Virus record (IMG/VR): IMGVR_UViG_3300046504_000062
Coordinates: 1-39,669 of that record
Origin: a virus
DNA: 39,669 nucleotides
Direction: 5' to 3' (one strand)
Position 1 is the first letter of the stretch. Every line of letters begins with the position of its first letter. The position numbers and the translations under genes are program-made. Positions 1 to 37,125 of this stretch are shown piece by piece. A model generated the notes under the pieces. The model had not been told where the DNA came from. It made no database searches and saw nothing but the letters and a program-made list of their open reading frames with translations.

Positions 1-1
1 G

Positions 2-553
2 ACAACAGGCAGGGACGATCATAAACATGAAATTACTCAACTTGCAATTATTGTAGAAATCAATGGCGAGGTAAAAGAGGAAGTCAGTTGGCGTTGTCAG
101 CCGACTAATTGGGATGTCATTGAACAAGGGGCCCTGGATGTTACTGGGGTAGGGATTGAGGAATTAAAAAAACTTCCTCCTCCAGAAGAGATGTTCAAAA
201 ATCTCATGGATCTATTCGATAGATATGTGAGCAAGTTTGATCGCGCTCCTCAGAAGTTCTATCCAGCGGGACATAACGTTGGTTTTGATCTTAAGTTCCT
301 CGATGCCTTTATTAAAAAACATGGGAATGCAGATAACCAGAAGTGGGGCATTACCTCATATCAAAACTGGAGATCACTGGACAGTCGTGTAATGGCTAAT
401 TTTTTCTTAGTCAAAGAGAAAATATTTACAGACGATGTTCGCCTAGAAACACTTTGTAAATTTTATGGGATTGATATTAGTGCGCACGACGCTTTGAGCG
501 ATATTCGCGCGACCAGATCCTTAATACAGAGAATGATGCAGGAGATAAAATGA
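2..553 (+). CDS. DEDDh 3'-5' exonuclease (DnaQ/epsilon-like), 5' partial
   Basis: The reading frame is open from the first bases of the window, so the true start lies upstream. The visible protein opens with TTG, the tail of the Exo I motif D-x-E-T-T-G. Exo II is seen as GHNVGFDLKF and Exo III as HDALSDIRATRS, with the HxAxxD spacing of the DEDDh class. Proteins of this family remove 3' nucleotides using two metal ions, as proofreading subunits or stand-alone exonucleases. No polymerase domain follows, so this is a stand-alone exonuclease here. The ATG inside the frame at 191 is too late, because it would remove the N-terminal third of the fold. The stop overlaps the next start as ATGA (550-553), which implies translational coupling. 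The family call is firm; the exact role in phage replication is inference. Confidence 0.88.
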   Translation, partial: TTGRDDHKHEITQLAIIVEINGEVKEEVSWRCQPTNWDVIEQGALDVTGVGIEELKKLPPPEEMFKNLMDLFDRYVSKFDRAPQKFYPAGHNVGFDLKFLDAFIKKHGNADNQKWGITSYQNWRSLDSRVMANFFLVKEKIFTDDVRLETLCKFYGIDISAHDALSDIRATRSLIQRMMQEIK

Positions 554-1137
554 AAATACTAATTTGTGGCGTTGGCGCCATAGGATCAAATCTAACAACA
601 AACCTCGTAGCCGACCTAAAAGGAAAGCACGAGATTACTGTTTTGGACATGGATACCGTTGAAGAGCGGAATGTCACTCCTGGAACTCAATTTTATACAC
701 CTGACCAAGTAGGGATGACTAAGGTTGAAGCACTACAATTTAATGTGTATAAGCAATTTCAAAAGGATATAGAATTTATTTCTGGAAAAATTGGAAGAGG
801 CGGACCAGACGTTGAAAAATATGATTTGATCATCGACTGTTTTGATAATTTTGAAGCACGTAGTTATTTACAGGAATTATGGCAAGAGAATCTTTTAGAT
901 ACTGCCTTATTGCACATTGGTTTTTCAGATCAATTTACATTTGCAATTGAATGGGCACAAAAATATAAAGTGCCAACCGACATTACGACTGGCTTTGATA
1001 TTTGCGAGATGCCTGGTGCAAGGTCATTTGTAGCCACTGTAGCGGCCCTAGGAAGTCTTGTGGCCCAGAAGTGGATAGAAGATAGCTCTCATATGGAAAT
1101 CGTGGGTGGAAAGTACACTCATACACTGATTAAATAA
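550..1137 (+). CDS. ThiF/E1-like adenylyltransferase (Rossmann-type)
   Basis: A 195-residue protein with the ATP-binding GVGAIGSN loop at residues 7-14, a D-x-D pair at 33-35, E38/R40/N41 and a lysine at about 58. This is the usual ThiF/MoeB/E1 pattern, completed by the acidic IIDCFDN segment near residue 95. Family members adenylate the C-terminus of a ubiquitin-like sulfur carrier or of a substrate. The protein is close to a bare catalytic domain: the longer C-terminal part of MoeB or ThiF and the paired Cys zinc ligands are absent. No ubiquitin-like, E2 or JAB gene is visible nearby. It is coupled to the exonuclease by ATGA and to the next gene by TAATATG. Phage use is unknown; modification of a protein or small molecule is inference. 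Confidence 0.82.
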   Translation: MKILICGVGAIGSNLTTNLVADLKGKHEITVLDMDTVEERNVTPGTQFYTPDQVGMTKVEALQFNVYKQFQKDIEFISGKIGRGGPDVEKYDLIIDCFDNFEARSYLQELWQENLLDTALLHIGFSDQFTFAIEWAQKYKVPTDITTGFDICEMPGARSFVATVAALGSLVAQKWIEDSSHMEIVGGKYTHTLIK

Positions 1138-1138
1138 T

Positions 1139-1477
1139 ATGGAAATTTCTAACGCCAAAATAGAATCTACCATGCTTGGTTTCGAGGACCATGGAATTTT
1201 TACGTGTCTGTTGTATTTAGATTATGGTGGGTCGAGCCAAGGATTTGGACAACACTGTCTCGCGAGTGAGCATCCTAAAGATAAAGCAACATATCCATTT
1301 AATTATGGAGCAAACTATATCATGGGCATTTTGAAAGCAGTGGGTGTAGAGAAATGGGAAGACTTAGAGGGTAAATACGTTCGCGTCAAAAGAGAAGATG
1401 GATGGAACGGAAAGATTGTTGCAATAGGACATATTGTTGAAGACAATTGGTTTAACCCCGACGACCTTCTCAAATAA
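1139..1477 (+). CDS. conserved-looking phage protein of unknown function
   Basis: A 112-residue, soluble, mixed alpha/beta protein that I cannot place in a named family. It is rich in aromatic residues and glycines (LDYGGSSQGFGQH) and ends in an acidic segment. There is no signal peptide or membrane segment. It begins one base after the ThiF-like stop in a TAATATG junction, with no Shine-Dalgarno of its own, so translation probably depends on the preceding gene. A strong TTGACA promoter box follows its stop, so it closes the first transcription unit in the window. Its position suggests a role linked to replication or nucleic-acid metabolism, but nothing in the sequence proves it. Confidence 0.75.
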   Translation: MEISNAKIESTMLGFEDHGIFTCLLYLDYGGSSQGFGQHCLASEHPKDKATYPFNYGANYIMGILKAVGVEKWEDLEGKYVRVKREDGWNGKIVAIGHIVEDNWFNPDDLLK

Positions 1478-1483
1478 TTTAAG

Positions 1484-1512
1484 TTGACAATGTTGATGTA
1501 TTATAATATACT
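1484..1512 (+). promoter_or_regulatory. sigma70-type promoter before the Cas4-like gene
   Basis: TTGACA at 1484-1489 and TATACT at 1507-1512 are separated by 17 bp. A perfect TATAAT (1502-1507) overlaps but sits only 12 bp from the -35. With the 17-bp pair, transcription would begin near 1519, downstream of the first ATG (1513). The effective start codon of the next gene could then be 1528 or 1540. Confidence 0.7.
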
Positions 1513-2553
1513 ATGTTTAATCAAGATATGGATCAAACAATGAAATGGAGCTTTGCAAGCATCTGGAATGAGTCGGTCTTAAACAGACCTGAACGACCTG
1601 CACAACCACGAGATCATATTTGGGCATCAGAATTAGGGAGCCCTCTTGTGGATAGATACCTCAAAATGACAGGCGTGACCCCAACCAATCCTCCTGGGGC
1701 ACGTTCCCTACGCAAGTTTGACGCGGGGAATATTTGGGAGTGGATTATAGGAGTAGTTTTGAAACGATCTGGCATTCTTATAGAGTCACAAAGATGGATC
1801 CAATATCAATACCCTGGTTTATTGCCTGTTACTGGTAAACTCGATTTCTTGGCTGGTGGCAATCCAGACTGGGATAAAGCAAAAATAGAAATCCATAAAC
1901 TTGGATTACCAGACTTCCTCACCTATCGCTCTAATGCAATCATTGACTCCTTTAGACAACATTATCCTAATGGACTCGACATTATAACACTAGAAATCAA
2001 AAGTGCTTCCTCAATGTCTTTCGAAAGATTTCTTCGCCTCCAAGCCCCCGATCCAAAACATAAATTACAAGCTTTTCATTATTTAAAAGCCCAAGATAAA
2101 CCCGAAGCCCACGTGGTATATGTCTGTAAGGATGACGCGCGCGTACTGGAATTTGGAGTGTTCAATCCTTCCGACGTGGAAGGTATTTATTACAACGACA
2201 TTAAAAATCTGACTGAGTATATAAATACAAAGACACTCCCTCCCCTCGAAAAAGAGATACTCTTTGACCATGGAAAGTTCACCAAAAACTGGAAAGTTGC
2301 ATATTCTCCGTTTCTTACCATGTTGTACGACTATAAAGATACTGACGCATTTGATAGTAAGTATGGGAAAAAAGTTCAACAGTGGAATCGTGTTTTTGGA
2401 CGCGTCGTCAAGGGAGATAAAATTACGGACTTAAATAAAGAGGTCATCGAAGACATAAAATTAACGTTTAGCAACTTCGATCAACTTGTTGATGAAACTA
2501 AATCTAGTGGCATTTTAGATCTAGAGGAGGAAGGAGGTGAACCAAATGAATAA
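1513..2553 (+). CDS. Cas4/RecB-like PD-(D/E)XK nuclease
   Basis: A 346-residue protein with the RecB-family nuclease core: an upstream acidic helix (SELG near residue 40), GKLD with catalytic D111, LEIKSAS with E161 and K163, and the QAFHY motif (Q186, Y190) typical of Cas4, AddB and lambda-exonuclease-type enzymes. The cysteines of a Cas4 iron-sulfur cluster are not evident, so a cluster-free RecB-like exonuclease is more likely. It would resect or process DNA ends in recombination or replication, fitting the SSB, RusA and RecA-like genes nearby. The start is uncertain: ATG 1513 touches the promoter -10 box, and in-frame ATGs at 1528 and 1540 would leave the domain intact. The 3' end overlaps the SSB gene by 8 nt and carries its Shine-Dalgarno. 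Confidence 0.86.
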   Translation: MFNQDMDQTMKWSFASIWNESVLNRPERPAQPRDHIWASELGSPLVDRYLKMTGVTPTNPPGARSLRKFDAGNIWEWIIGVVLKRSGILIESQRWIQYQYPGLLPVTGKLDFLAGGNPDWDKAKIEIHKLGLPDFLTYRSNAIIDSFRQHYPNGLDIITLEIKSASSMSFERFLRLQAPDPKHKLQAFHYLKAQDKPEAHVVYVCKDDARVLEFGVFNPSDVEGIYYNDIKNLTEYINTKTLPPLEKEILFDHGKFTKNWKVAYSPFLTMLYDYKDTDAFDSKYGKKVQQWNRVFGRVVKGDKITDLNKEVIEDIKLTFSNFDQLVDETKSSGILDLEEEGGEPNE

Positions 2554-2944
2554 CACAAACGATGGATGGGAAAAAATGGGTAACGATAAGAAAAACTCAA
2601 ATATTCCAGCATGGAATCCAGCAGTAGAAAAAGAAATCTTTGGAATCTATGTTGAAAAAGCAGTCGGCGTCGGACCAAACAACTCCAACATGTACTATTT
2701 GCAGCTTGCAGATGGTAGTAAAAAAGGAGTCTGGGGATCTTACGTGGTCGATGATCGCTTTCAGAATATTCAACCAGGGTATGAAGTGAAAATTGTTTCT
2801 CTTGGAAAACGAGAGAATCCAAAAACTCACAGAGCATTCTGGGATCTTGAATTTTTTGTTCGCAAACCAAGACCAGTACAAGCAGCTCAAACAGCAGCAC
2901 CTGCTGTTGAAGAAGAAGTAAATCCTGACGATATACCCTTCTAA
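2546..2944 (+). CDS. ssb: single-stranded DNA-binding protein with DDIPF tip
   Basis: A 132-residue protein that I read as a beta-rich OB-type domain (about residues 20-110), followed by an Ala/Pro/Glu linker and the terminal sequence NPDDIPF. That acidic-hydrophobic tip is the hallmark of bacterial SSB and recruits repair and replication proteins. The OB portion itself is divergent from canonical SSB, so the call rests on the tip, size and neighbourhood. Start: AAGGAGGTGA lies 6-15 nt upstream of ATG 2546; the GTG at 2537 is part of that Shine-Dalgarno and is not used. It overlaps the nuclease gene by 8 nt, so nuclease and SSB are probably made together. It should coat single-stranded phage DNA. 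Confidence 0.8.
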   Translation: MNNTNDGWEKMGNDKKNSNIPAWNPAVEKEIFGIYVEKAVGVGPNNSNMYYLQLADGSKKGVWGSYVVDDRFQNIQPGYEVKIVSLGKRENPKTHRAFWDLEFFVRKPRPVQAAQTAAPAVEEEVNPDDIPF

Positions 2945-2979
2945 GATAATTAAATCTTTTTGAAAGGAGGTTGAATACA

Positions 2980-3297
2980 ATGAGAAATTTCTCATATATT
3001 ACTGTCGGGAAAATCCTCGATGAGCTCTGGGAAGAGAAAAAAACATCTGGAGCATCAGAGGCTGATCTGTGGAAGATTAAACCCGATGGGAAAAAAGTAA
3101 AAAAATATCCTGTTACAAGGGTAACTTTTTATCGATTAGAAGAACGTTTAGGATTACCAAAAGGACAAAAAACGAATGGTAAACTTCAGTGGCGCGTTTA
3201 TTCGCGTGATGAAGCAGACCAAGTGAAACAACGTATAAAGGGAGAATATAATCTGTCCCACGATTATCCAGTGGCACAGGTCATAGCTACAACATAA
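2980..3297 (+). CDS. MerR/excisionase-like winged-helix protein
   Basis: A 105-residue basic protein. Its centre reads VTFYRLEERLGLP followed, after a short loop, by WRVYSRDEADQVKQRI. This is the helix-turn-helix plus wing plus helix pattern of MerR-like and excisionase domains. No effector domain follows. AAAGGAGG (2963-2970) precedes ATG 2980 with good spacing; the TTG at 2971 is too close to that site to be the start. It probably binds DNA as a small regulator or architectural protein for the early region. The fold is inferred by eye; specificity is unknown. The stop leads into the next gene through TAATATG. Confidence 0.65.
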   Translation: MRNFSYITVGKILDELWEEKKTSGASEADLWKIKPDGKKVKKYPVTRVTFYRLEERLGLPKGQKTNGKLQWRVYSRDEADQVKQRIKGEYNLSHDYPVAQVIATT

Positions 3298-3298
3298 T

Positions 3299-3700
3299 AT
3301 GGAACAACCTGTCGGATGGCCTCAAAAATTTGTAAGTTCTAATTGGACGCGTAAATTTACTGCGGCTGTCTATGGGCTGGCTTTCTTCGCATGTCTCATG
3401 CACATTATGTTACACGTTGCTACTAGCTCTCTTAGTGAGGCTGATGGCGTGCGCGTTATGGCTATGACTTGGATGGTAACTGGATATTTAAGCTTTTTGC
3501 GAGCATCGAGACTCGAAGATGGCTTAGATAAGGTTATTGAGGCAACGAAGATAACTGTGGAAACATTATCTCTTGAGAACCAAGCCTTAAGCAATTCATA
3601 CAACAATGTTGTAGAAACGCTTGATAGAATTGATAAACGAGTCCTGATGAAGCATGGAATATCTATATCCCTAACTAAACCAGAAAAACTCAAAAATTAA
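3299..3700 (+). CDS. small two-helix membrane protein
   Basis: A 133-residue protein with two likely membrane segments, about residues 21-42 and 51-68, then a long cytoplasmic C-terminal part that looks helical and may form a coiled coil (about 72-115). There is no signal peptidase site and no recognisable enzyme motif. It starts through a TAATATG junction with the preceding gene and its stop touches the next ATG, so it sits in a tightly coupled run. Function unknown; a membrane anchor for a replication or host-takeover complex would fit the position, but that is speculation. Confidence 0.7.
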   Translation: MEQPVGWPQKFVSSNWTRKFTAAVYGLAFFACLMHIMLHVATSSLSEADGVRVMAMTWMVTGYLSFLRASRLEDGLDKVIEATKITVETLSLENQALSNSYNNVVETLDRIDKRVLMKHGISISLTKPEKLKN

Positions 3701-3955
3701 ATGTCTAACCTGCCTACATCCGTACAAAAACACGGAAATCTTGCCCAAGCTCTGTTTACTTTCGAGGTCCCTGGGGAAACTTTAGTGGCGCTATATAATG
3801 CGCTTTCTTTTGTTGTGGAGAATGAAGATGATTACATTATGAAAATTCACCCATGTAAAGAATGCCTGCCCGCGCTCAAAACGTTTCGTTTGTATCTCGA
3901 AAGTATTACAAAAAAGGCGTCGTTATTTGCTAAAGAACCGCCCCTATCCAACTGA
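3701..3955 (+). CDS. hypothetical early protein (84 aa)
   Basis: An 84-residue protein, mostly helical by composition, with one CKEC pair near residue 53 but no second pair to complete a zinc site. Its ATG follows the preceding stop with no gap (TAAATG), and there is no independent Shine-Dalgarno. No family recognised. It is the last gene before a possible promoter at 3966-3994. Confidence 0.6.
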   Translation: MSNLPTSVQKHGNLAQALFTFEVPGETLVALYNALSFVVENEDDYIMKIHPCKECLPALKTFRLYLESITKKASLFAKEPPLSN

Positions 3956-3965
3956 TTTGCATTCC

Positions 3966-3994
3966 TTGCAGTAGTGTGATAGCGTTTGTATATA
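3966..3994 (+). promoter_or_regulatory. possible promoter before zinc-ribbon gene
   Basis: TTGCAG (3966-3971) and TATATA (3989-3994) with 17-bp spacing lie directly before ATG 3996. The -10 almost touches the start codon, as at 1507-1513, so the real start of translation or of transcription may differ from the annotation. Confidence 0.4.
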
Positions 3995-3995
3995 C

Positions 3996-4259
3996 ATGGA
4001 AAAACCTGCCAAGAAATATCCTGAAAAGTATAAACCCACGGTCTATCAAATAGTCTGTTGGCACTGTAAAAGAGCCCACGTAACCCTCTATAATATCCCC
4101 TTCGAAGGAAAAAAATCTAACGATTATACTTGTGCAGATTGTAAGGTTTGGGGAGCTCCTCCGATTTGGAATGCTTCTCGTATTATATTAAAGAAAGCAC
4201 AACCAACAGTGACCCCACCCACTGAGAAATTAGATGCCAAAACTCTGCCTAGTGTGTAG
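3996..4259 (+). CDS. zinc-ribbon protein
   Basis: An 87-residue protein with two CxxC knuckles, C21/C24 (CWHC) and C46/C49 (CADC), spaced as in a zinc ribbon, followed by a proline/lysine-rich tail. Such small phage proteins often bind nucleic acid or host transcription proteins; which applies here is unknown. Its last 26 nt overlap a second zinc-finger gene in another frame (start 4234). Expression could use the promoter-like pair at 3966-3994. Confidence 0.7.
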   Translation: MEKPAKKYPEKYKPTVYQIVCWHCKRAHVTLYNIPFEGKKSNDYTCADCKVWGAPPIWNASRIILKKAQPTVTPPTEKLDAKTLPSV

Positions 4260-4413
4260 TACGCCTTTAACACAAAGAGCTCACGAAAGTAAAGCAAGAT
4301 TTCAAAAGAAACGATTCTGTTCAGCAAAATGTTCTCGTGTGTACATGAAAGAACATAAATTAGGATGGTGGAGTGCGAGTTCTAATATTTCATCCCGAAA
4401 GGATTGGAATTAA
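4234..4413 (+). CDS. small FCS-type zinc-finger protein (59 aa)
   Basis: A 59-codon frame from ATG 4234 to TAA 4411-4413. It has a CxxC pair (C5, C8), a basic middle, and an FCSAKCSR segment giving C29 and C33. This C-x2-C plus F-C-S-x2-C layout is typical of small phage zinc fingers. The gene fills what would otherwise be a 155-base gap and joins the RusA gene through a TAATATG junction (4411-4417). Both points argue that it is translated. It overlaps the end of the zinc-ribbon gene by 26 nt in another frame. Function unknown; nucleic-acid or protein binding is likely. Confidence 0.72.
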   Translation: MPKLCLVCSTPLTQRAHESKARFQKKRFCSAKCSRVYMKEHKLGWWSASSNISSRKDWN

Positions 4414-4414
4414 T

Positions 4415-4771
4415 ATGCAATTTACTCTAACTAAACCACCAACCACTAATCATATCTATGGAATCACCGCCCGTGGTGGTTTTGCTCAGATGTACATTAC
4501 TAAAGAGGGTAAAGAATGGATTGCTGAAAACACCCTTCTTATCAAGAGTCAGTGGAAGAAAAAAACTCCTATTACTCAGGACTGTGAGATCTGGATTATT
4601 GTCTACACATCTACTAAAAGAGATGCTGACGGATCAACCAAGCCTATTATGGATATTTTCCAAAAAGTAGGAGTTGTTGAAAACGATTATTTATTCTCTC
4701 GTGTCCACGCAATTCGTGAGAAAGTTGCCAAGGGAGAAGATAAAGTAGTGGTAGATATTAATGAATTCTAG
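4415..4771 (+). CDS. rusA: RusA-family Holliday junction resolvase
   Basis: A 118-residue protein, the usual RusA length. It begins with the family N-terminus KPPTTNHIY and carries KRDADGSTKPIMD followed by ENDYLF. The acidic residues fall at D70, D72 and D91 with K76, the same positions as the catalytic residues described for E. coli RusA. It should bind four-way junctions as a dimer and cut symmetrically, resolving recombination intermediates made by the SSB and RecA-like proteins of this arm. ATG 4415 is chosen over an upstream GTG (4373) because it lies in a TAATATG junction and starts exactly where RusA proteins start. Confidence 0.9.
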   Translation: MQFTLTKPPTTNHIYGITARGGFAQMYITKEGKEWIAENTLLIKSQWKKKTPITQDCEIWIIVYTSTKRDADGSTKPIMDIFQKVGVVENDYLFSRVHAIREKVAKGEDKVVVDINEF

Positions 4772-4778
4772 CTTCTCG

Positions 4779-4807
4779 TTGACTTTCTCTGTATAATATG
4801 ATATATT
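4779..4807 (+). promoter_or_regulatory. promoter with about 90-nt leader before HTH gene
   Basis: TTGACT (4779-4784) and TATATT (4802-4807) at 17 bp. The predicted start near 4814 gives a leader of about 90 nt that ends in AAAGGAGGTGA (4890-4900). A CTTTC segment about ten bases upstream can pair with the GAAAG at the start of that ribosome-binding site, so some translational control is possible. Confidence 0.6.
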
Positions 4808-4905
4808 ATACGAACTCAAGAGAAATATGGCTCAACACGACCTTCTACATTTAGTCATTCACAATTTTAACGCTTTCTTTTTTGTTATGAAAGGAGGTGA
4901 ACAAC

Positions 4906-5235
4906 ATGTCAATGACAATTCAATCGGTTCGTCCAGAACCTAAAACTCTTCAATCGAATATTATCTCTAGAATGCTTGGACCAGTAAAATACCAGTCATT
5001 TTTGGGTAATTATCGAAAAAATCGTAAATCTTTACGAATGAATCGCGAAGACTGGCTTTCTCAACCATTAACAGCGAAAGAGCACACATTTATGTATGAC
5101 TATCTAAATGAATTAGGTAGCTCCATTACAGAATTGGGTCGCAAACAAGAGATGAAACCAGCTGGAGTTCACGCTCAAGCTCTTAGAATTTGCGCTCGTT
5201 ACTTATTTCAAAATAAGGACAAGATCACACGATAA
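4906..5235 (+). CDS. putative helix-turn-helix regulator
   Basis: A 109-residue basic protein. Its C-terminal half (about residues 55-100) has the rhythm of a region-4-like helix-turn-helix: LTAKEHTFMYDYLNEL, then SSITELGRKQEM and a recognition-like helix rich in Ala/Arg. The N-terminal half is basic with no known motif. Start ATG 4906 has an optimal Shine-Dalgarno (AAAGGAGGTGA ending 5 nt upstream); the GTG at 4897 lies inside that site. It has its own promoter and strong ribosome binding, so it is probably made early and in quantity. It stands directly before the tRNA island. The DNA-binding role is inferred. Confidence 0.6.
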   Translation: MSMTIQSVRPEPKTLQSNIISRMLGPVKYQSFLGNYRKNRKSLRMNREDWLSQPLTAKEHTFMYDYLNELGSSITELGRKQEMKPAGVHAQALRICARYLFQNKDKITR

Positions 5236-5240
5236 TGGTC

Positions 5241-5269
5241 TTGAAAAAATGTGTACTATATGATATAGT
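5241..5269 (+). promoter_or_regulatory. promoter for structured RNA
   Basis: TTGAAA (5241-5246) and TATAGT (5264-5269), 17 bp apart. The predicted start is about 5275-5276, which coincides with the base of the long hairpin RNA that follows. Confidence 0.65.
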
Positions 5270-5273
5270 ATTC

Positions 5274-5349
5274 AGAGAAGCGCCATCCAAGTGAACCTCA
5301 GGGCCTTCACGCCCGACGTTCTCTATCCAAAACTTGGGTGGCCTTCTCG
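5274..5349 (+). ncRNA. structured small RNA of unknown class
   Basis: About 76 nt that close on themselves. GAGAAG (5275-5280) pairs with CTTCTC (5343-5348). After one bulged C (5281), 5282-5292 pairs with 5332-5342 over 11 bp including one G-U. Inside, GGGC (5301-5304) pairs with GCCC (5311-5314) around CTTCAC, and GAAC (5293-5296) with GTTC (5318-5321), leaving an unpaired TCTATCCAAA. It has its own promoter upstream, and the promoter for the first tRNA begins only a few bases after it. It is not a tRNA, has no U-tract and no start codon with a useful frame. T4 also has small stable RNAs of unknown role beside its tRNAs, which is a loose parallel only. Confidence 0.7.
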
Positions 5350-5353
5350 TAAC

Positions 5354-5381
5354 TTGACAATCCTGTCTAAAATGATATAGT
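5354..5381 (+). promoter_or_regulatory. promoter of the tRNA / RNase P RNA island
   Basis: TTGACA (5354-5359) and TATAGT (5376-5381), 16 bp apart. Transcription should begin at about 5388-5391, on or next to the first base of the first tRNA, so this tRNA would need little or no 5' trimming. Confidence 0.72.
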
Positions 5382-5390
5382 TTAGGTATT

Positions 5391-5476
5391 GGACTGGTTG
5401 GGAGCGGGTATCCCGATGTGTTCGCTAAACACATGGTCTGAAATATGGCTCATAGGTTCGAATCCTATCCTTTCCG
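5391..5476 (+). tRNA. tRNA-Ser(GCU), irregular
   Basis: 86 nt with a long variable arm, as in tRNA-Ser. The T arm is ATAGG-TTCGAAT-CCTAT (5452-5468) and the D stem is GGGA/TCCC. The anticodon region holds GCT followed by AA, fitting Ser. Irregularities: the acceptor GGACTGG/CCTTTCC has two mismatches, and the anticodon loop is either seven bases with C at position 33 or nine bases on a shorter stem. CCA is not encoded. It may be a functional odd tRNA or a decaying one. Confidence 0.72.
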
Positions 5477-5479
5477 CTT

Positions 5480-5647
5480 ATGGCACACAAAAAGAAATCA
5501 AAAGGGACTGGAACTTATGCGTCTCAACATCATTACGAGAAAAATAAAGTCCGTAAATTAGAGACGTATATTGCACATAATCCAAATGACTTGGAGTCAA
5601 TGAAAAAATTACAAGCGCTAAAAGAAGAGTGGAAGAGTATTTTATAA
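5480..5647 (+). CDS. basic 55-aa protein locked between two tRNAs
   Basis: ATG 5480 lies three bases after the tRNA-Ser discriminator base, and TAA (5645-5647) is directly followed by the first base of tRNA-Pro (5648). The product starts MAHKKKSKGTGTYAS and continues as a charged helical peptide ending in EEWKSIL. It is lysine-rich and without membrane segments. There is no Shine-Dalgarno. Cleavage at the tRNA ends would release an mRNA consisting of little more than this frame. Function unknown; nucleic-acid binding is plausible from the charge. Confidence 0.65.
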   Translation: MAHKKKSKGTGTYASQHHYEKNKVRKLETYIAHNPNDLESMKKLQALKEEWKSIL

Positions 5648-5720
5648 CAGGATGTAGCGAAGTTGGTATCGCGCACGGCCTGGGACCGTGAGATCGAGGG
5701 TTCGAGTCCCCCTATCCTGA
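5648..5720 (+). tRNA. tRNA-Pro(UGG)
   Basis: A regular 73-nt cloverleaf: acceptor CAGGATG/TATCCTG, D stem GCGA/TCGC, anticodon stem CACGG/CCGTG with loop CCTGGGA, T loop TTCGAGT. The anticodon is UGG for Pro. Position 33 is C instead of the near-universal U, and one T-stem pair is A-C. No encoded CCA. Its 5' end abuts the stop codon of the preceding mini-ORF. Confidence 0.88.
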
Positions 5721-5721
5721 C

Positions 5722-5748
5722 AAAAAAAGTCGTTCGAGACCGAACGGC
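5722..5748 (-). terminator. leftward intrinsic terminator
   Basis: On the minus strand an 8-bp stem (5741-5748 with 5729-5736, four-base loop) is followed by exactly seven T (5728-5722). This matches the seven-T terminators of the late leaders. It would stop leftward transcripts running out of the late arm before they read antisense through the first tRNAs and the replication genes. Confidence 0.6.
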
Positions 5749-5759
5749 TCACCTATAAT

Positions 5760-5872
5760 CAATAACTTGGCTGTGCACGGCATAACCAGCAATTGAGTGA
5801 GCGATAAGGTGTTCTACAGCTGCAATAATGCTGGGCTCAGTGAAAGCTTAGCTTAACGATTTCTCACTCAAT
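5760..5872 (+). ncRNA. second structured RNA of unknown class, abutting tRNA-Gly
   Basis: No reading frame is evident here. ATTGAGTGAG (5792-5801) pairs perfectly with CTCACTCAAT (5863-5872) over 10 bp, enclosing about 60 nt with smaller stems, for example CAGC/GCTG near 5817-5834 and AAGC/GCTT near 5844-5855. GCTG/CAGC upstream (5770-5790) gives another stem. The long stem ends at 5872 and tRNA-Gly starts at 5873, so RNase P cleavage would form its 3' end. TATAAT at 5754-5759 could start it, though a -35 box is weak. It does not match tRNA, tmRNA or a hammerhead core by eye. Confidence 0.55.
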
Positions 5873-5943
5873 GCGTTCATAGCGTAATGGCAACGCCTCT
5901 GTTTTCCAAACAGAAGATGAGGGTTCGATTCCCTTTGGATGCT
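5873..5943 (+). tRNA. tRNA-Gly(UCC)
   Basis: A 71-nt cloverleaf: acceptor GCGTTCA/TGGATGC with G-U pairs, D stem GCGT/ACGC, anticodon stem TCTGT/ACAGA with loop TTTCCAA (anticodon UCC), T arm GAGGG-TTCGATT-CCCTT. U33 is normal here. CCA is not encoded. An ORF starts three bases downstream. Confidence 0.92.
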
Positions 5944-5946
5944 CAT

Positions 5947-6072
5947 ATGAAATTTCGTCGCAAAAAATCACAGCGACAAGTGCGCTGTACATTGTGTACT
6001 CCGTATAAATGGATGGGCAACAGTAAACAGAGATTAAAGAAGAGAGATTTAATAAATTTAGAAAAAAGTTGA
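5947..6072 (+). CDS. small basic protein (41 aa) after tRNA-Gly
   Basis: ATG 5947 follows the end of tRNA-Gly by three bases and TGA (6070-6072) falls inside the -35 box of the next promoter. The 41-residue product is strongly basic (MKFRRKKSQRQ), has one CTLC pair and an aromatic YKWMGN segment. A longer frame begins inside the tRNA at 5887, but that would translate tRNA sequence and is unlikely. No Shine-Dalgarno is present. Nucleic-acid binding is a guess from charge. Confidence 0.5.
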   Translation: MKFRRKKSQRQVRCTLCTPYKWMGNSKQRLKKRDLINLEKS

Positions 6073-6097
6073 CAATACTGTTTTAGTTGGATATGGT
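6069..6097 (+). promoter_or_regulatory. leaderless-type promoter for the nuclease
   Basis: TTGACA (6069-6074), 17 bp, TATGGT (6092-6097), then six bases and ATG at 6104. The predicted transcription start coincides with the A of the start codon. No Shine-Dalgarno exists. Confidence 0.65.
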
Positions 6098-6103
6098 TTA
6101 ATA

Positions 6104-6493
6104 ATGAACCTGTCCAGCTCACAATATAAAGGCGACGTGGCAAAGTCCATGGCCATATCAACATTTACAAAAATGGGATTTAACATCGGAATGCTATTAA
6201 CCGAATCTGCTCATTATGACTTGCTAGTTGATACATTAAAAGGAGTCAAGAGAGTTTCTATTAAATATTTAGGAAGTAAAAATGGAATGTTGGATTTGAG
6301 AAGTATACACTCAAATTCATCTGGGTATGTAATTAGAAAAACAGAAGAAAATGAATATGATTGGTTGTATATCTATACAAAAGATGGTAAAGAATATTTA
6401 TATGAGGAATGTCTTAATGGGAAAAGTTCTATAAAGCCTAAAGAAGAAAAAATAATTGGAAGGATTGAGCAATTGGTCGCTCAGCAATCTTGA
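6104..6493 (+). CDS. PD-(D/E)XK endonuclease, homing/PDDEXK_5-like
   Basis: A 129-residue protein with the start of this fold, YKGDVAKSMAISTFTKMGF, then SAHYDLLVD (catalytic D39) and VKRVSIKY, where K54 fits the last catalytic lysine; the usual Q/E two residues earlier is S. The layout resembles Pfam PDDEXK_5, which includes I-Ssp6803I-like homing enzymes. Free-standing nucleases in phage tRNA islands often promote spread of the island. Its 3' end is also the 5' half of tRNA-Ser(UGA): codons from 6458 onward double as acceptor, D arm and anticodon stem. Processing of that tRNA would cut the mRNA before its stop codon. The promoter gives a leaderless mRNA. Confidence 0.75.
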   Translation: MNLSSSQYKGDVAKSMAISTFTKMGFNIGMLLTESAHYDLLVDTLKGVKRVSIKYLGSKNGMLDLRSIHSNSSGYVIRKTEENEYDWLYIYTKDGKEYLYEECLNGKSSIKPKEEKIIGRIEQLVAQQS

Positions 6494-6543
6494 AAATTGC
6501 CGTTCGAAAGGACATTGAGGTTCGAGCCCTCATCTTTCCGCCA
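6458..6543 (+). tRNA. tRNA-Ser(UGA) with encoded CCA, overlapping a CDS
   Basis: Acceptor GGAAGGA (6458-6464) pairs with TCTTTCC (6533-6539), discriminator G, then CCA (6541-6543). D stem GAGC/GCTC, anticodon stem GCAAT/ATTGC with loop CTTGAAA, variable arm GTTC-GAAA-GGAC, T arm TGAGG-TTCGAGC-CCTCA. This is a clean type II serine tRNA. The first 36 nt lie inside the nuclease gene, and the anticodon TGA (6491-6493) is physically the stop codon of that gene. Confidence 0.92.
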
Positions 6544-6592
6544 GGACAGCTTGGAAGCTGGTAGTCTTGCTTACATAAAGAACTTCCATCAT
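6544..6592 (+). other. 49-nt spacer with tRNA-like 5' half
   Basis: Between tRNA-Ser(UGA) and tRNA-Cys. It contains a GGACAGC...GCTGGTAGTC stretch that resembles an acceptor plus D arm, but no anticodon arm or T arm can be closed. It may be a tRNA remnant or just spacer. Confidence 0.3.
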
Positions 6593-6665
6593 GGCCCGTT
6601 GGTGAAGTGGAAACACGGGAGTCTGCAAAACTCTAATCGCAACGGTTCGATTCTGTTACGGGCCT
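6593..6665 (+). tRNA. tRNA-Cys(GCA)
   Basis: 73 nt. Perfect acceptor GGCCCGT/ACGGGCC, D stem GTG/CAC, anticodon stem GGAGT/ACTCT with loop CTGCAAA (GCA), T arm AACGG-TTCGATT-CTGTT. No encoded CCA. Confidence 0.94.
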
Positions 6666-6671
6666 CATAAT

Positions 6672-6746
6672 ACGCGCGTAGTTCAGCGGTAGAACGCTTC
6701 TCTGATAAAGAAGAGGTGCATGGTCCAACTCCATGGGTGCGTACCA
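6672..6746 (+). tRNA. tRNA-Ile(GAU)
   Basis: Acceptor ACGCGCG (6672-6678) with GGTGCGT (6736-6742; last pair mismatched), D stem GTTC/GAAC, anticodon stem CTTCT/AGAAG with loop CTGATAA (GAU), T arm CATGG-TCCAACT-CCATG. The discriminator is A6743. The following CCA (6744-6746) shares two bases with the P1 helix of the RNase P RNA, so tRNA 3' end and ribozyme 5' end meet here. Confidence 0.9.
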
Positions 6747-7040
6747 ACATCGAGACAAGGCCCCGAAAGGGGAGGAAACTCCAGACTCCAAGAGCAACCT
6801 GCCTCAATAAAATGAGGGCACCGAAAGGTGACAGTTTAGAGCAACAGTGACGAATCTAGCGGTGAATTATCCTGTGTATACATGGGGTGGGCATTCAAAC
6901 CCATAATCAAGTGCTAGGGTGAAACGGGCAATCCTCGGTGGAGCAAGTCCCGAGCTGATGATAAGGCTGACTCGGCCAAAGCAGAGGCGGACGCATTAGA
7001 TAGATCTTGTCATAAAACAGAATCTGGGTTACGGGTGTTG
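6745..7040 (+). ncRNA. rnpB: RNase P RNA (catalytic subunit)
   Basis: About 296 nt. P1 is CAACATC (6745-6751) with GGTGTTG (7034-7040). P2 is GACAAG (6754-6759) with CTTGTC (7006-7011). P3 is CCCC-GAAA-GGGG (6761-6772). The universal 5' core motif GAGGAAACTCCAGACTCC (6772-6789) differs from E. coli M1 at few positions. P4 forms as AC-(U)-CCAGA (6778-6785) with TCTGGGT (7023-7029), keeping the bulged U; E. coli has AG-(U)-CCGGG with CCCGGCU, so several pairs show compensatory change. AGGGTGAAACGG (6917-6928), GGAGCAAG (6940-6947) and ACAGAATCTGGGTTACGG (7017-7034) are the other conserved blocks. The RNA should remove tRNA 5' leaders with a host or phage protein subunit; no protein gene is visible. 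It is short because helices between AGGGTGAAA and GGAGCAAG are missing. Confidence 0.93.
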
Positions 7041-7043
7041 AAT

Positions 7044-7118
7044 ACTAACGTGGCTAAGGGGTAACAGCGCTTCTCTTATAAAGAAGGTCACACGTAGGTC
7101 CGAATCCTACCGTTAGTA
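7044..7118 (+). tRNA. tRNA-Ile(UAU)
   Basis: 75 nt. Perfect acceptor ACTAACG/CGTTAGT, D stem GCT/AGC, anticodon stem CTTCT/AGAAG with loop CTTATAA (UAU, reading AUA), T arm GTAGG-TCCGAAT-CCTAC, where the T loop starts TC instead of TT. No encoded CCA. It begins three bases after the RNase P RNA. Its anticodon stem is identical to that of tRNA-Ile(GAU), which suggests duplication of one tRNA-Ile around the ribozyme. Confidence 0.9.
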
Positions 7119-7120
7119 CA

Positions 7121-7354
7121 ATGAAGTCAGAAAAAGTTGCCATCGTTGATCTTAAATTGACTCAGCAAGAGCTCGAAGTCCTCTTCTATATCGTCGATGA
7201 CTGGAGAACTATGAAATCAGATGGTCAGCTAGACGTTATTTACCCAAATCATTCCACTTCTTCTACTCGTCTTATTCAAACTTTCGATCTTATTTTACGA
7301 GAAATGCGACAAGGGCCTGCTAAACGTTTACTTGACAAACCAGACTCGAACTGA
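7121..7354 (+). CDS. hypothetical protein (77 aa) starting at a tRNA end
   Basis: A 77-residue helical protein, VDLKLTQQELEVLFYIVDDW then a loop and LIQTFDLILREMRQG. No family recognised. Its ATG is the third base after tRNA-Ile(UAU), with no Shine-Dalgarno, so a tRNA 3' cut would yield a nearly leaderless mRNA. The last codons hold the -35 box of the promoter for the next gene. Confidence 0.6.
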   Translation: MKSEKVAIVDLKLTQQELEVLFYIVDDWRTMKSDGQLDVIYPNHSTSSTRLIQTFDLILREMRQGPAKRLLDKPDSN

Positions 7355-7360
7355 TATCAT
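7332..7360 (+). promoter_or_regulatory. leaderless-type promoter for recombination operon
   Basis: TTGACA (7332-7337), 17 bp, TATCAT (7355-7360), then six bases and ATG at 7367. The predicted first transcribed base is the A of the start codon. There is no Shine-Dalgarno. Confidence 0.68.
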
Positions 7361-7366
7361 TTATAT

Positions 7367-7990
7367 ATGACTGAAGAAGGAATTGTCTTACAAAAAGATG
7401 AATTAATGACCATTGGAGATCATTACGATCAGTACCTCGATAAACTCCAAACCTACGAAGATTATCTTTCATTTTATTCACAATTAGACGAAGCCTCTAG
7501 TGCGTTTTCATGGGTACGCGCAGATGTATTACTTCAGATGGTCATGAATCTGGGGGATAAGTCTGTCGAAGAATTAGCTAAAGATTTAAAACAACCACGT
7601 AGTACCGTCACTAATTATGTACGAGTAGCGCGTGCATTCCCCCCAGATAAACGAGAACCTATCGTACCATTTTCTACTCACTACCAAGCTTCTTATGCAG
7701 ATTCCTATAACGAAAAAACCAAAGTGTTTGATGGGGAACTGAGATTCGAATTAATCAAAAAAGCAGCAGATGATGGACTTTCAGTGCGCCAAGTCATTAA
7801 ACAGATGCAAGAAACCAAAGCTCTCAAATCTGCTCCAGACGAAGATACCGCAAGAATGATTGCTGATGCAGAACAAAAGGCCCACGATATTATGAAAATG
7901 TGTGGCTCTCTACGTGATGACGTTAAAACTGGCAATAAACAATCCTACGAATCATTATTCAAAATTCACGAGTTTGTCTTTCCACATTAA
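7367..7990 (+). CDS. ParB/KorB-like helix-turn-helix protein
   Basis: A 207-residue soluble protein. Residues about 66-90 form a clear helix-turn-helix, SVEELAKDLKQPRSTVTNYVR, and a second motif, LIKKAADDGLSVRQVIKQM, resembles the helix that follows the HTH in ParB/KorB-type proteins. A ParB nuclease or CTPase box is not evident. The C-terminal part is helical. It is first in a short operon with the RecA-like gene, which starts two bases after its stop. It may regulate the operon or help load recombination proteins; both are inference. Confidence 0.65.
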   Translation: MTEEGIVLQKDELMTIGDHYDQYLDKLQTYEDYLSFYSQLDEASSAFSWVRADVLLQMVMNLGDKSVEELAKDLKQPRSTVTNYVRVARAFPPDKREPIVPFSTHYQASYADSYNEKTKVFDGELRFELIKKAADDGLSVRQVIKQMQETKALKSAPDEDTARMIADAEQKAHDIMKMCGSLRDDVKTGNKQSYESLFKIHEFVFPH

Positions 7991-7992
7991 TT

Positions 7993-8859
7993 ATGGCCAA
8001 GAAACCTGCCGAACCAACAACAGAGCCAAAACCTACTCTCAATCGTATCATCGCTGAATTAAATAAAAAGTTCGGACTAAATATTATTGGCAGATTGGGT
8101 GACATGCCCACTATTCAAATTCCTCGTTTATCCACTAGCATTGCTCCTTTAGACGTAGCTACAGGTGGCGGCTTACCAGCTAAAGGCATGATTGAATTAT
8201 TTGGTATCCCCTCTAGCGGTAAAAGTCTCATTTCGCTTCTCACTATAGCTCAGGCACAAAAAGAAGGAAAAGAATGCGTCTATATTGACGCAGAAAATTC
8301 ATTCGATCCTCATTTTGCAGAACAATTGGGTGTTGATGTTAAAAAATTAGTAGTGACACAGGTTTCTATTGGAGAAGATACCATTGACTTGCTTTGTAAA
8401 TTACTTCCCTCAGTGCCTGCCATTATTGTTATCGATTCTATCGCGGCCCTTATTACACAAGATGAAGTTGATGAGCCAATGGAAAAGAATTTTATGGCTG
8501 TGAAGGCTAGATTGCTTTCCCGAGCACTCGCTAAAATTAATGTTTTAAATAAAGGGACACTTATCATCGGTATTAATCAGTTACGGTCTACAATGGCACT
8601 ATACGGGCCACAAACTACCACTCCAGGAGGACGTGCTGTAGGTCATTGGTCATTGATGAGAATTGAAGTTAAAAAAAGCGAACTACTCTACGAAGAAGAT
8701 AAAAAAACGAATCCAGTTATTGGGCAATTAGTCTCATGCACTGTGGTTAAAAATAAGACAGCTCCTCCATATAAATTGGGATCATTCAAGTTTTTCTATG
8801 ATCCAATGAGGGTGGAGGTTAATCGTGAAAAAGTGGAAGAAAAAGGAACAGAAGGATAA
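7993..8859 (+). CDS. RecA/UvsX-like recombinase
   Basis: A 288-residue protein with Walker A GIPSSGKS (71-78), the catalytic glutamate in DAENSFD (E101), Walker B IIVIDS (144-149), the INQLRS segment and a TTPGGRAVG stretch in the L2 region. It should form ATP-dependent filaments on single-stranded DNA and drive strand exchange, working with the SSB and resolving via RusA. It is shorter than bacterial RecA (about 350) because the C-terminal domain is missing, as in other phage versions. The N-terminal residues are Pro/Lys-rich. Its 3' end overlaps the next gene by 35 nt. Confidence 0.92.
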   Translation: MAKKPAEPTTEPKPTLNRIIAELNKKFGLNIIGRLGDMPTIQIPRLSTSIAPLDVATGGGLPAKGMIELFGIPSSGKSLISLLTIAQAQKEGKECVYIDAENSFDPHFAEQLGVDVKKLVVTQVSIGEDTIDLLCKLLPSVPAIIVIDSIAALITQDEVDEPMEKNFMAVKARLLSRALAKINVLNKGTLIIGINQLRSTMALYGPQTTTPGGRAVGHWSLMRIEVKKSELLYEEDKKTNPVIGQLVSCTVVKNKTAPPYKLGSFKFFYDPMRVEVNREKVEEKGTEG

Positions 8860-9154
8860 AGAATTCTTTGGTGGTACTCTTCAGCGCGGTAGTGGAAATC
8901 AGTGGGCATTCCCTGGTGACATAAAAACTGCCGATCTTCTTATCGAAAGCAAACAAACAGATAAAAATTCCTTCACAATTACCAGACAACTTTGGGATAA
9001 AATTTATGAGGAAGCACTGTTATTATACAGATATCCCTTGATGTCCATCAAAATTAAAGATATAGATTTAGTAGTGATGAGTAGAGAAGATTTTAACCGT
9101 CTAACTTGTGGAGCTCTTTTGCCGCCTGCTGACCATATTCCTCATAAAGAATAA
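8825..9154 (+). CDS. PD-(D/E)XK nuclease, resolvase-like
   Basis: A 109-residue protein with the compact nuclease core RGSGNQWAFPGDIKTADLLIE... D32, E41 and K43 (in ESKQT) fit the PD-(D/E)XK metal site. This resembles small Hjc/phage resolvase-type enzymes. The start is GTG 8825, supported by GGAGG six bases upstream within the RecA-like gene. It is the last plus-strand gene, and its 3' end overlaps the convergent DUF1599-like gene by 62 nt. It would cleave branched DNA or DNA ends; which one is not visible. Confidence 0.75.
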   Translation: MKKWKKKEQKDKEFFGGTLQRGSGNQWAFPGDIKTADLLIESKQTDKNSFTITRQLWDKIYEEALLLYRYPLMSIKIKDIDLVVMSREDFNRLTCGALLPPADHIPHKE

Positions 9155-9467
9155 TACACAGAATTGCATATACGGCCATATCCATTAAGGTGTCCGTGAA
9201 CGATTCACCCACGAGATCTTTTTTCCCTTTGGCAAGTTCTTGAAGACGCGACCACTTGTCTGACATCCGAACCAAAGCACCGAGATATGCGGGGATTCCG
9301 AAAGATTCACTTTGTTTAAGATTTGAAAGGGGATCGGTATCTTTGGAGTAATTGTTGTTTTTTCTGTCATGGAGATCTTCCATTTCTTTGAGAAGTGCAT
9401 AGAAGCGAGGATGCCCGTGATGTAGGTTTTCTCTTATTTGTACAGCTTGTCCCTGTTTCTGTCCCAT
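9093..9467 (-). CDS. DUF1599/Nmad1-like nucleotide-modification protein
   Basis: A 124-residue helical protein. HPRFYALLKEMEDLHDRKNN, then LVRMSDKWSRLQEL and ESFTDTLMDMAVYAIL give the acid-rich EXXLH / DKxxRL / DTLMDxAxYA pattern of DUF1599 (Nmad1), a relative of MazG-type all-alpha NTP pyrophosphohydrolases found in phages. It probably acts on a modified or non-canonical nucleotide. It overlaps the MazG-like gene by 34 nt, and its 3' end lies antisense to the plus-strand nuclease gene. Confidence 0.78.
   Translation of the reverse strand: MGQKQGQAVQIRENLHHGHPRFYALLKEMEDLHDRKNNNYSKDTDPLSNLKQSESFGIPAYLGALVRMSDKWSRLQELAKGKKDLVGESFTDTLMDMAVYAILCIILYEEYGQQAAKELHKLDG

Positions 9468-34305: not shown

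Positions 34306-37125
<2,820 letters not shown>

Follow-up and report, generated by a model that had tools for sequence, protein, structure and literature searches.

Can the tRNA genes of a phage serve as cutting marks that set the ends of its messenger RNAs? The question is raised by the tRNA island of the IMG/VR virus record IMGVR_UViG_3300046504_000062, which was analyzed over its full 39,669 bases (the window) and in which seven tRNA genes on the + strand at 5391-7119 (ARAGORN, Rfam) are interleaved with small open reading frames (ORFs) and an RNase P RNA. Punctuation of mRNAs by tRNAs is known mainly from mitochondria. Our best single reading of this island, to which we give about an even chance of being right, is that excision of the tRNAs would release near-leaderless mRNAs together with a free RNase P RNA.

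ARAGORN called tRNA-Ser(GCU) at 5391-5477, Pro(UGG) at 5648-5721, Gly(UCC) at 5873-5944, Ser(UGA) at 6458-6543, Cys(GCA) at 6593-6666, Ile(GAU) at 6672-6746, and Ile(UAU) at 7044-7119. The discriminator base is the end of the Rfam tRNA matches (5476, 5720, 5943, 6665, 6743, and 7118), among which tRNA-Ser(GCU) scored weakly (24.7 bits versus a cut-off of 29). Counted from that base, the ATGs at 5480, 5947, and 7121 follow after 3, 3, and 2 nucleotides (nt), in the junctions G73-CTT-ATG, T73-CAT-ATG, and A73-CA-ATG; these spacings, first proposed in the earlier note, are confirmed by ARAGORN, Rfam, and the sequence. The TAA of the first ORF (5645-5647) abuts tRNA-Pro, which begins at 5648, again as had been proposed. 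On the whole, three starts and one stop lie within a few nt of tRNA ends, as expected of punctuation. As a baseline, an ATG ORF of 41 or more codons begins 2-3 nt after 1.4% of the + strand positions in 1-9200, and the chance of finding such an ORF behind three of seven tRNAs is ~1e-4 (a binomial estimate that takes no account of how tightly phage genes are packed in general). The layout is real, and chance is an unlikely explanation for it. Its features, all on the + strand, are the following:

5241-5269, + strand: promoter-like TTGAAA-17-TATAGT before the hairpin RNA (a consensus match alone; the number of such sites across the window is near chance expectation)
5275-5350 (also delimited as 5268-5350), + strand: strong hairpin ahead of the tRNA island, possibly a small RNA (z -5.4; nothing in Rfam matches)
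5354-5381, + strand: promoter-like TTGACA-16-TATAGT, with a predicted start a few nt before tRNA-Ser (consensus match)
5391-5476, + strand: tRNA-Ser(GCU), CCA not encoded (ARAGORN, Rfam)
5480-5647, + strand: ORF of 55 amino acids, 3 nt past tRNA-Ser, its TAA abutting tRNA-Pro (homology, codons)
5648-5720, + strand: tRNA-Pro(UGG) (ARAGORN, Rfam)
5721-5872, + strand: structured spacer RNA whose closing stem reaches the last base before tRNA-Gly (z -3.5; no Rfam match)
5873-5943, + strand: tRNA-Gly(UCC), CCA not encoded (ARAGORN, Rfam)
5947-6072, + strand: ORF of 41 amino acids, 3 nt past tRNA-Gly, a basic protein (homologues in viral contigs)
6069-6097, + strand: promoter TTGACA-17-TATGGT, 6 nt before ATG 6104, a leaderless geometry (consensus match)
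6104-6493, + strand: PD-(D/E)XK endonuclease ORF whose TGA stop doubles as the anticodon of tRNA-Ser(UGA) (Pfam PF11645, sequence)
6458-6542, + strand: tRNA-Ser(UGA), CCA encoded (ARAGORN, sequence)
6593-6665, + strand: tRNA-Cys(GCA) (ARAGORN, Rfam)
6672-6743, + strand: tRNA-Ile(GAU), then CCA, the CA of which is common to the P1 helix of the RNase P RNA (ARAGORN, Rfam)
6745-7043, + strand: predicted RNase P RNA, class A, flanked by two tRNA-Ile genes (RF00010, helix pairing)
7044-7118, + strand: tRNA-Ile(UAU), CCA not encoded (ARAGORN, Rfam)
7121-7354, + strand: ORF of 77 amino acids, 2 nt past tRNA-Ile(UAU) (codon usage)
7332-7360, + strand: promoter TTGACA-17-TATCAT, 6 nt before ATG 7367, a leaderless geometry (consensus match)

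Are the small ORFs genes? Residues 1-51 of the ORF at 5480 aligned with the N-terminus of an Aeromonas phage Ah1 protein (38.6%, E 8e-3); the ORF also matched phrog_18475 weakly (E 0.0018), and its codons are coding-like. The ORF at 5947 carries the motif CxLCxP(Y/H)(K/R)WxGNxK and has homologues in 12 other viral contigs that are similar in N-terminal length; its codon usage by itself does not settle its coding status. Homologues of both ORFs align from the first residues, which supports the starts predicted at these ATGs. The ORF at 7121 scored as coding, and phage-like, in codon usage. Additionally, ORF 6104-6493 matched Pfam PF11645 (PD-(D/E)XK nuclease) with an E value of 8.4e-11 and 42.5 bits versus a curated cut-off of 26.1; we take this family to be linked to the homing enzyme I-Ssp6803I.

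The RNase P RNA that the earlier note had placed in the island was recovered by the family model. Rfam RF00010 matched 6745-7044 over its full length (model 1-367 of 367, E 1.8e-23, 78.5 bits), with complementary strands for P1, P2, P3, P4, P5, P8, P9, P11, P12, and P15. Loss of P12, as in some Microgenomatia (PMC8172020), was considered and dropped, the P11 and P12 strands being complementary. The core helix P4 pairs AAC-U-CCAGA with UCUGG-GUU; all 8 of its pairs can form, and the bulged U is in place. The pairs AAC/GUU and CCAGA/UCUGG of this RNA correspond in the other RNase P RNAs compared, that of E. coli included, to AAG/CUU and to CCGGG, CCGGA, or CCGAA with matching partners, and judged by these pairs the P4 helix is kept by compensatory changes. 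P1 starts inside the CCA after tRNA-Ile(GAU), and three bases separate its end from tRNA-Ile(UAU). When folded freely, the 300 nt did only weakly better than shuffles (z -1.75), so that it is the family model and the helices that carry the evidence for an RNase P RNA. The predicted full-length RNase P RNA between the two tRNA-Ile genes, itself punctuated by tRNAs, is convincing.

Does this RNA have a role in the phage, or is it a decoy or a relic captured from a host, uninvolved in phage RNA processing? Its 78.5 bits lie below the RF00010 gathering score of 100, P13, P14, and P18 were left unaligned, and GGC stands in place of the GGU motif. An RNase P protein gene (PF00825) was sought in the window and 12 other phage records (13 in total) and none was found, so that the protein would have to come from the host. 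Against a decoy or relic stand the P4 helix, which retains every pair and the bulged U while both of its strands differ from those of other RNase P RNAs, and the recurrence of RNase P RNAs in the tRNA arrays of other phages. We regard this explanation as improbable.

That recurrence came from two pattern scans of IMG/VR together with covariance searches, each scan using one exact core pattern, such that all counts are lower bounds. In about eight further viral lineages, RNase P RNAs were found within tRNA arrays, as a rule at most 7 nt from a tRNA. They lie 6 nt from tRNA-Cys and 6 nt from tRNA-Gly in a 463 kb record (L069), and 6 and 6 nt from tRNAs in L004 and its near-copy L005/L072; L069 and L004 share a common array order and may be one lineage. 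In L076 the RNA begins 1 nt past tRNA-Asp and touches tRNA-Ser, while it touches tRNA-Val in L066 and tRNA-Thr in L091, follows tRNA-Trp by 1 nt in a 363 kb record (L082), and lies 7 nt from tRNA-Val in L065. The distance to a tRNA is 17 nt in L085, about 65 nt in L067, and 72 nt in L071. Terminase-type PHROG or Pfam matches occurred in the records of L069, L071, L082, L085, and L091; we take phrog_2 and phrog_9 to be terminase families. Records with an RNase P RNA and no adjoining tRNA (L068, L073, L075, L077, L081, and L093), which may be host DNA, were excluded from the count.

Two named phages were set aside. The RNase P RNA of Acinetobacter phage MD-2021a sits among bacterial genes, and that of Microcystis phage MaAM05 (MW495066, L175) is surrounded by bacterial fliM, glyS, and fabI; record MW495066 looks contaminated or mislabelled. 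We also observed a transfer-messenger RNA (tmRNA) near the RNase P RNA of the phage-like record L088 (636-993 and 1449-1755), and a tmRNA with an RNase P-like core in L090, the latter not confirmed by covariance search. Searches of the open full-text literature turned up no paper that describes genes for RNase P RNA within the tRNA arrays of phages.

How would ribosomes start on ORFs that begin directly behind a tRNA? Measured as duplex energy with the anti-Shine-Dalgarno sequence, the Shine-Dalgarno (SD) signals before 5480, 5947, and 7121 were ~0, -3.1, and ~0 kcal/mol, and the -3.1 kcal/mol match sits within the acceptor stem of tRNA-Gly. None of the three thus has a clear SD, in agreement with the earlier note, but SD-less starts are frequent throughout the phage: of the 30 genes that closely follow another gene, 17 have no SD, and several further genes have none either. 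SD absence is therefore not special to the three ORFs, which might start without any processing; it characterizes the phage as a whole and probably its host as well.

The main rival to tRNA excision takes up this point. Under compaction alone, genes would start 0-4 nt past any upstream feature, the three ORFs would be translated by SD-independent initiation on a longer RNA, or hardly at all, and tRNA cutting would have no role in making their mRNAs. Tight gene packing is common in phages, and many gene pairs in the window are separated by 0-4 nt without an SD, often as TAA-N-ATG. A stop codon abutting a tRNA is likewise ordinary, given that phage T5 (AY543070) has stop-to-tRNA gaps of 0, 4, and 5 nt. 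Directly past a tRNA, however, there would be no upstream translation for coupling, and the folded tRNA would occupy the ribosome docking site. Moreover, 13-34 nt are left after the tRNA in T5 and most other arrays. T5 has 16 annotated genes that follow a tRNA or stable RNA, 13 at this distance and the remaining three at 74-260 nt, and for 12 of the 13 nearby genes the SD-like match is at least as strong as -4 kcal/mol (an endonuclease gene, with -1.0, is the exception). Across other phage arrays, in which ATG ORFs were counted from a length of 50 codons upward, post-tRNA ORFs mostly fell either at 14-30 nt with an SD or at 0-4 nt without one. All three post-tRNA ORFs of the window belong to the abutting, SD-less class (2-3 nt), as do cases in L091 (gaps of 0 and 2), L066 (1), and L069 (4). 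One post-tRNA ORF of L085 has an 11 nt gap and no SD, and the stretches examined of actinophages LinStu and Trina contained no abutting case. We consider compaction a possible, though doubtful, account of the three starts.

Along with the general SD-less starts, the tight packing, the ordinary abutting stop, and the RNase P protein gene that was not found, several further observations weigh against tRNA excision as the source of these mRNAs. The anatomy fits the punctuation model of the earlier note and the small ORFs are supported as genes, but the model does not fit ORF 6104-6493, which terminates within tRNA-Ser(UGA): excision of this tRNA would leave its mRNA without a stop codon, and not every ORF end in the island is compatible with excision. 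Nuclease genes of T5 overlap tRNAs likewise, so that the overlap is a known habit of such genes. A homologue of the ORF at 5947 in L180 stands beside tRNA-Ser genes but has an SD, and protein family and sequence searches (Pfam and PHROG among them) found no homologue of the ORF at 7121. Lastly, close relatives of the island, sought in IMG/VR by RecA-like, PD-(D/E)XK nuclease, exonuclease-like, and Cas4-like proteins, were not found, and conservation of the junctions could therefore not be seen.

Leaderless mRNAs could also be made by separate promoters within the tRNA genes, one for each ATG, as is seemingly the case at 6104 and 7367. Promoters of this leaderless geometry (-10 ending 6 nt before the ATG) exist in this phage at those two genes and were also observed in the related records L052 and L059. 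Within the tRNAs before 5480, 5947, and 7121, however, the best promoter-like sites had 5-6 of 12 matches, which is like random ATGs, 66% of which reach 6. An origin of the three mRNAs from such promoters is very improbable.

Under tRNA excision, transcription probably starts from a promoter just before tRNA-Ser and would give one polycistronic RNA in which tRNAs, small mRNAs, and structured RNAs are joined. RNase P would cut at the tRNA 5' ends, and a 3' tRNase such as RNase Z would cut after the discriminator base. These cuts would leave the mini-ORFs with leaders of 2-3 nt (CUU-AUG, CAU-AUG, and CA-AUG), and ribosomes would translate them as near-leaderless mRNAs. They would also free the RNase P RNA from its two tRNA-Ile neighbors, with RNase P itself generating the 3' end of this RNA, and the phage RNA would function either with a host RNase P protein or by itself. 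We infer that the island is co-transcribed and cut, that its mRNAs are translated leaderless, and that its RNase P RNA is active. A stronger form, in which the operon is self-processing, with a ribozyme in the tRNA array freeing its own 3' end while the same cuts release leaderless mRNAs, is put forward tentatively and strikes us as rather unlikely. The recurrence of RNase P RNAs in phage tRNA arrays would then make self-processing a widespread phage strategy. If tRNA punctuation of the island is real, phages would bring a catalytic RNA to process their own transcripts, an RNase P RNA would be found joined in nature to the substrate that it cuts, and tRNA excision would be a second route to leaderless mRNAs, next to promoters positioned at the ATG.

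Several known systems resemble parts of this arrangement. As in mitochondrial punctuation, tRNAs flank mRNAs with almost no leader and their excision would define mRNA ends; unlike there, the phage has SDs at some genes, only three ORFs are concerned, and cutting is presumed. In the yeast mitochondrial fMet-RPM1-Pro unit (PMC3797045), RNase P RNA is co-transcribed with flanking tRNAs, as it would be here, whereas RPM1 RNA is organellar and occurs as fragments in the enzyme and the phage RNA is of the compact bacterial class A and touches tRNAs. The T5 region (AY543070) interleaves tRNAs, small ORFs, stable RNAs, and homing-type nucleases, its stops abut tRNAs, and its nuclease ORFs overlap tRNAs, but its ORFs keep a distance of at least 13 nt from the tRNA or stable RNA before them, an SD precedes nearly all of them, and the annotation of the region lists no RNase P RNA. 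GOLLD and ROOL (PMC12286853) are large structured phage RNAs near tRNA islands; they are unrelated RNAs without known function, in contrast to the known ribozyme family here. Mycobacterium austroafricanum (PMC9569102) likewise has extra RNase P RNA genes, presumed to have come by horizontal transfer and separated by an endonuclease gene, but these are reported from a bacterial genome. The self-cleaving pre-tRNA-RNase P RNA conjugates of Frank, Harris and Pace (1994; cited in PMC11143913) also join an RNase P RNA to a cuttable tRNA, but these are lab-designed, and the phage case is a natural gene order with a putative activity.

Elsewhere in the window, the glycosyltransferase matched 39 IMG/VR records, the nearer of which are related in the tail region; the matched records that were searched held no RNase P RNA. 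Bacterial genomes scanned with the same protein returned distant relatives alone, mostly Firmicutes. The window also encodes, at 34306-37125, a tail-fibre-like protein of 939 amino acids in which collagen triple-helix repeats predominate.

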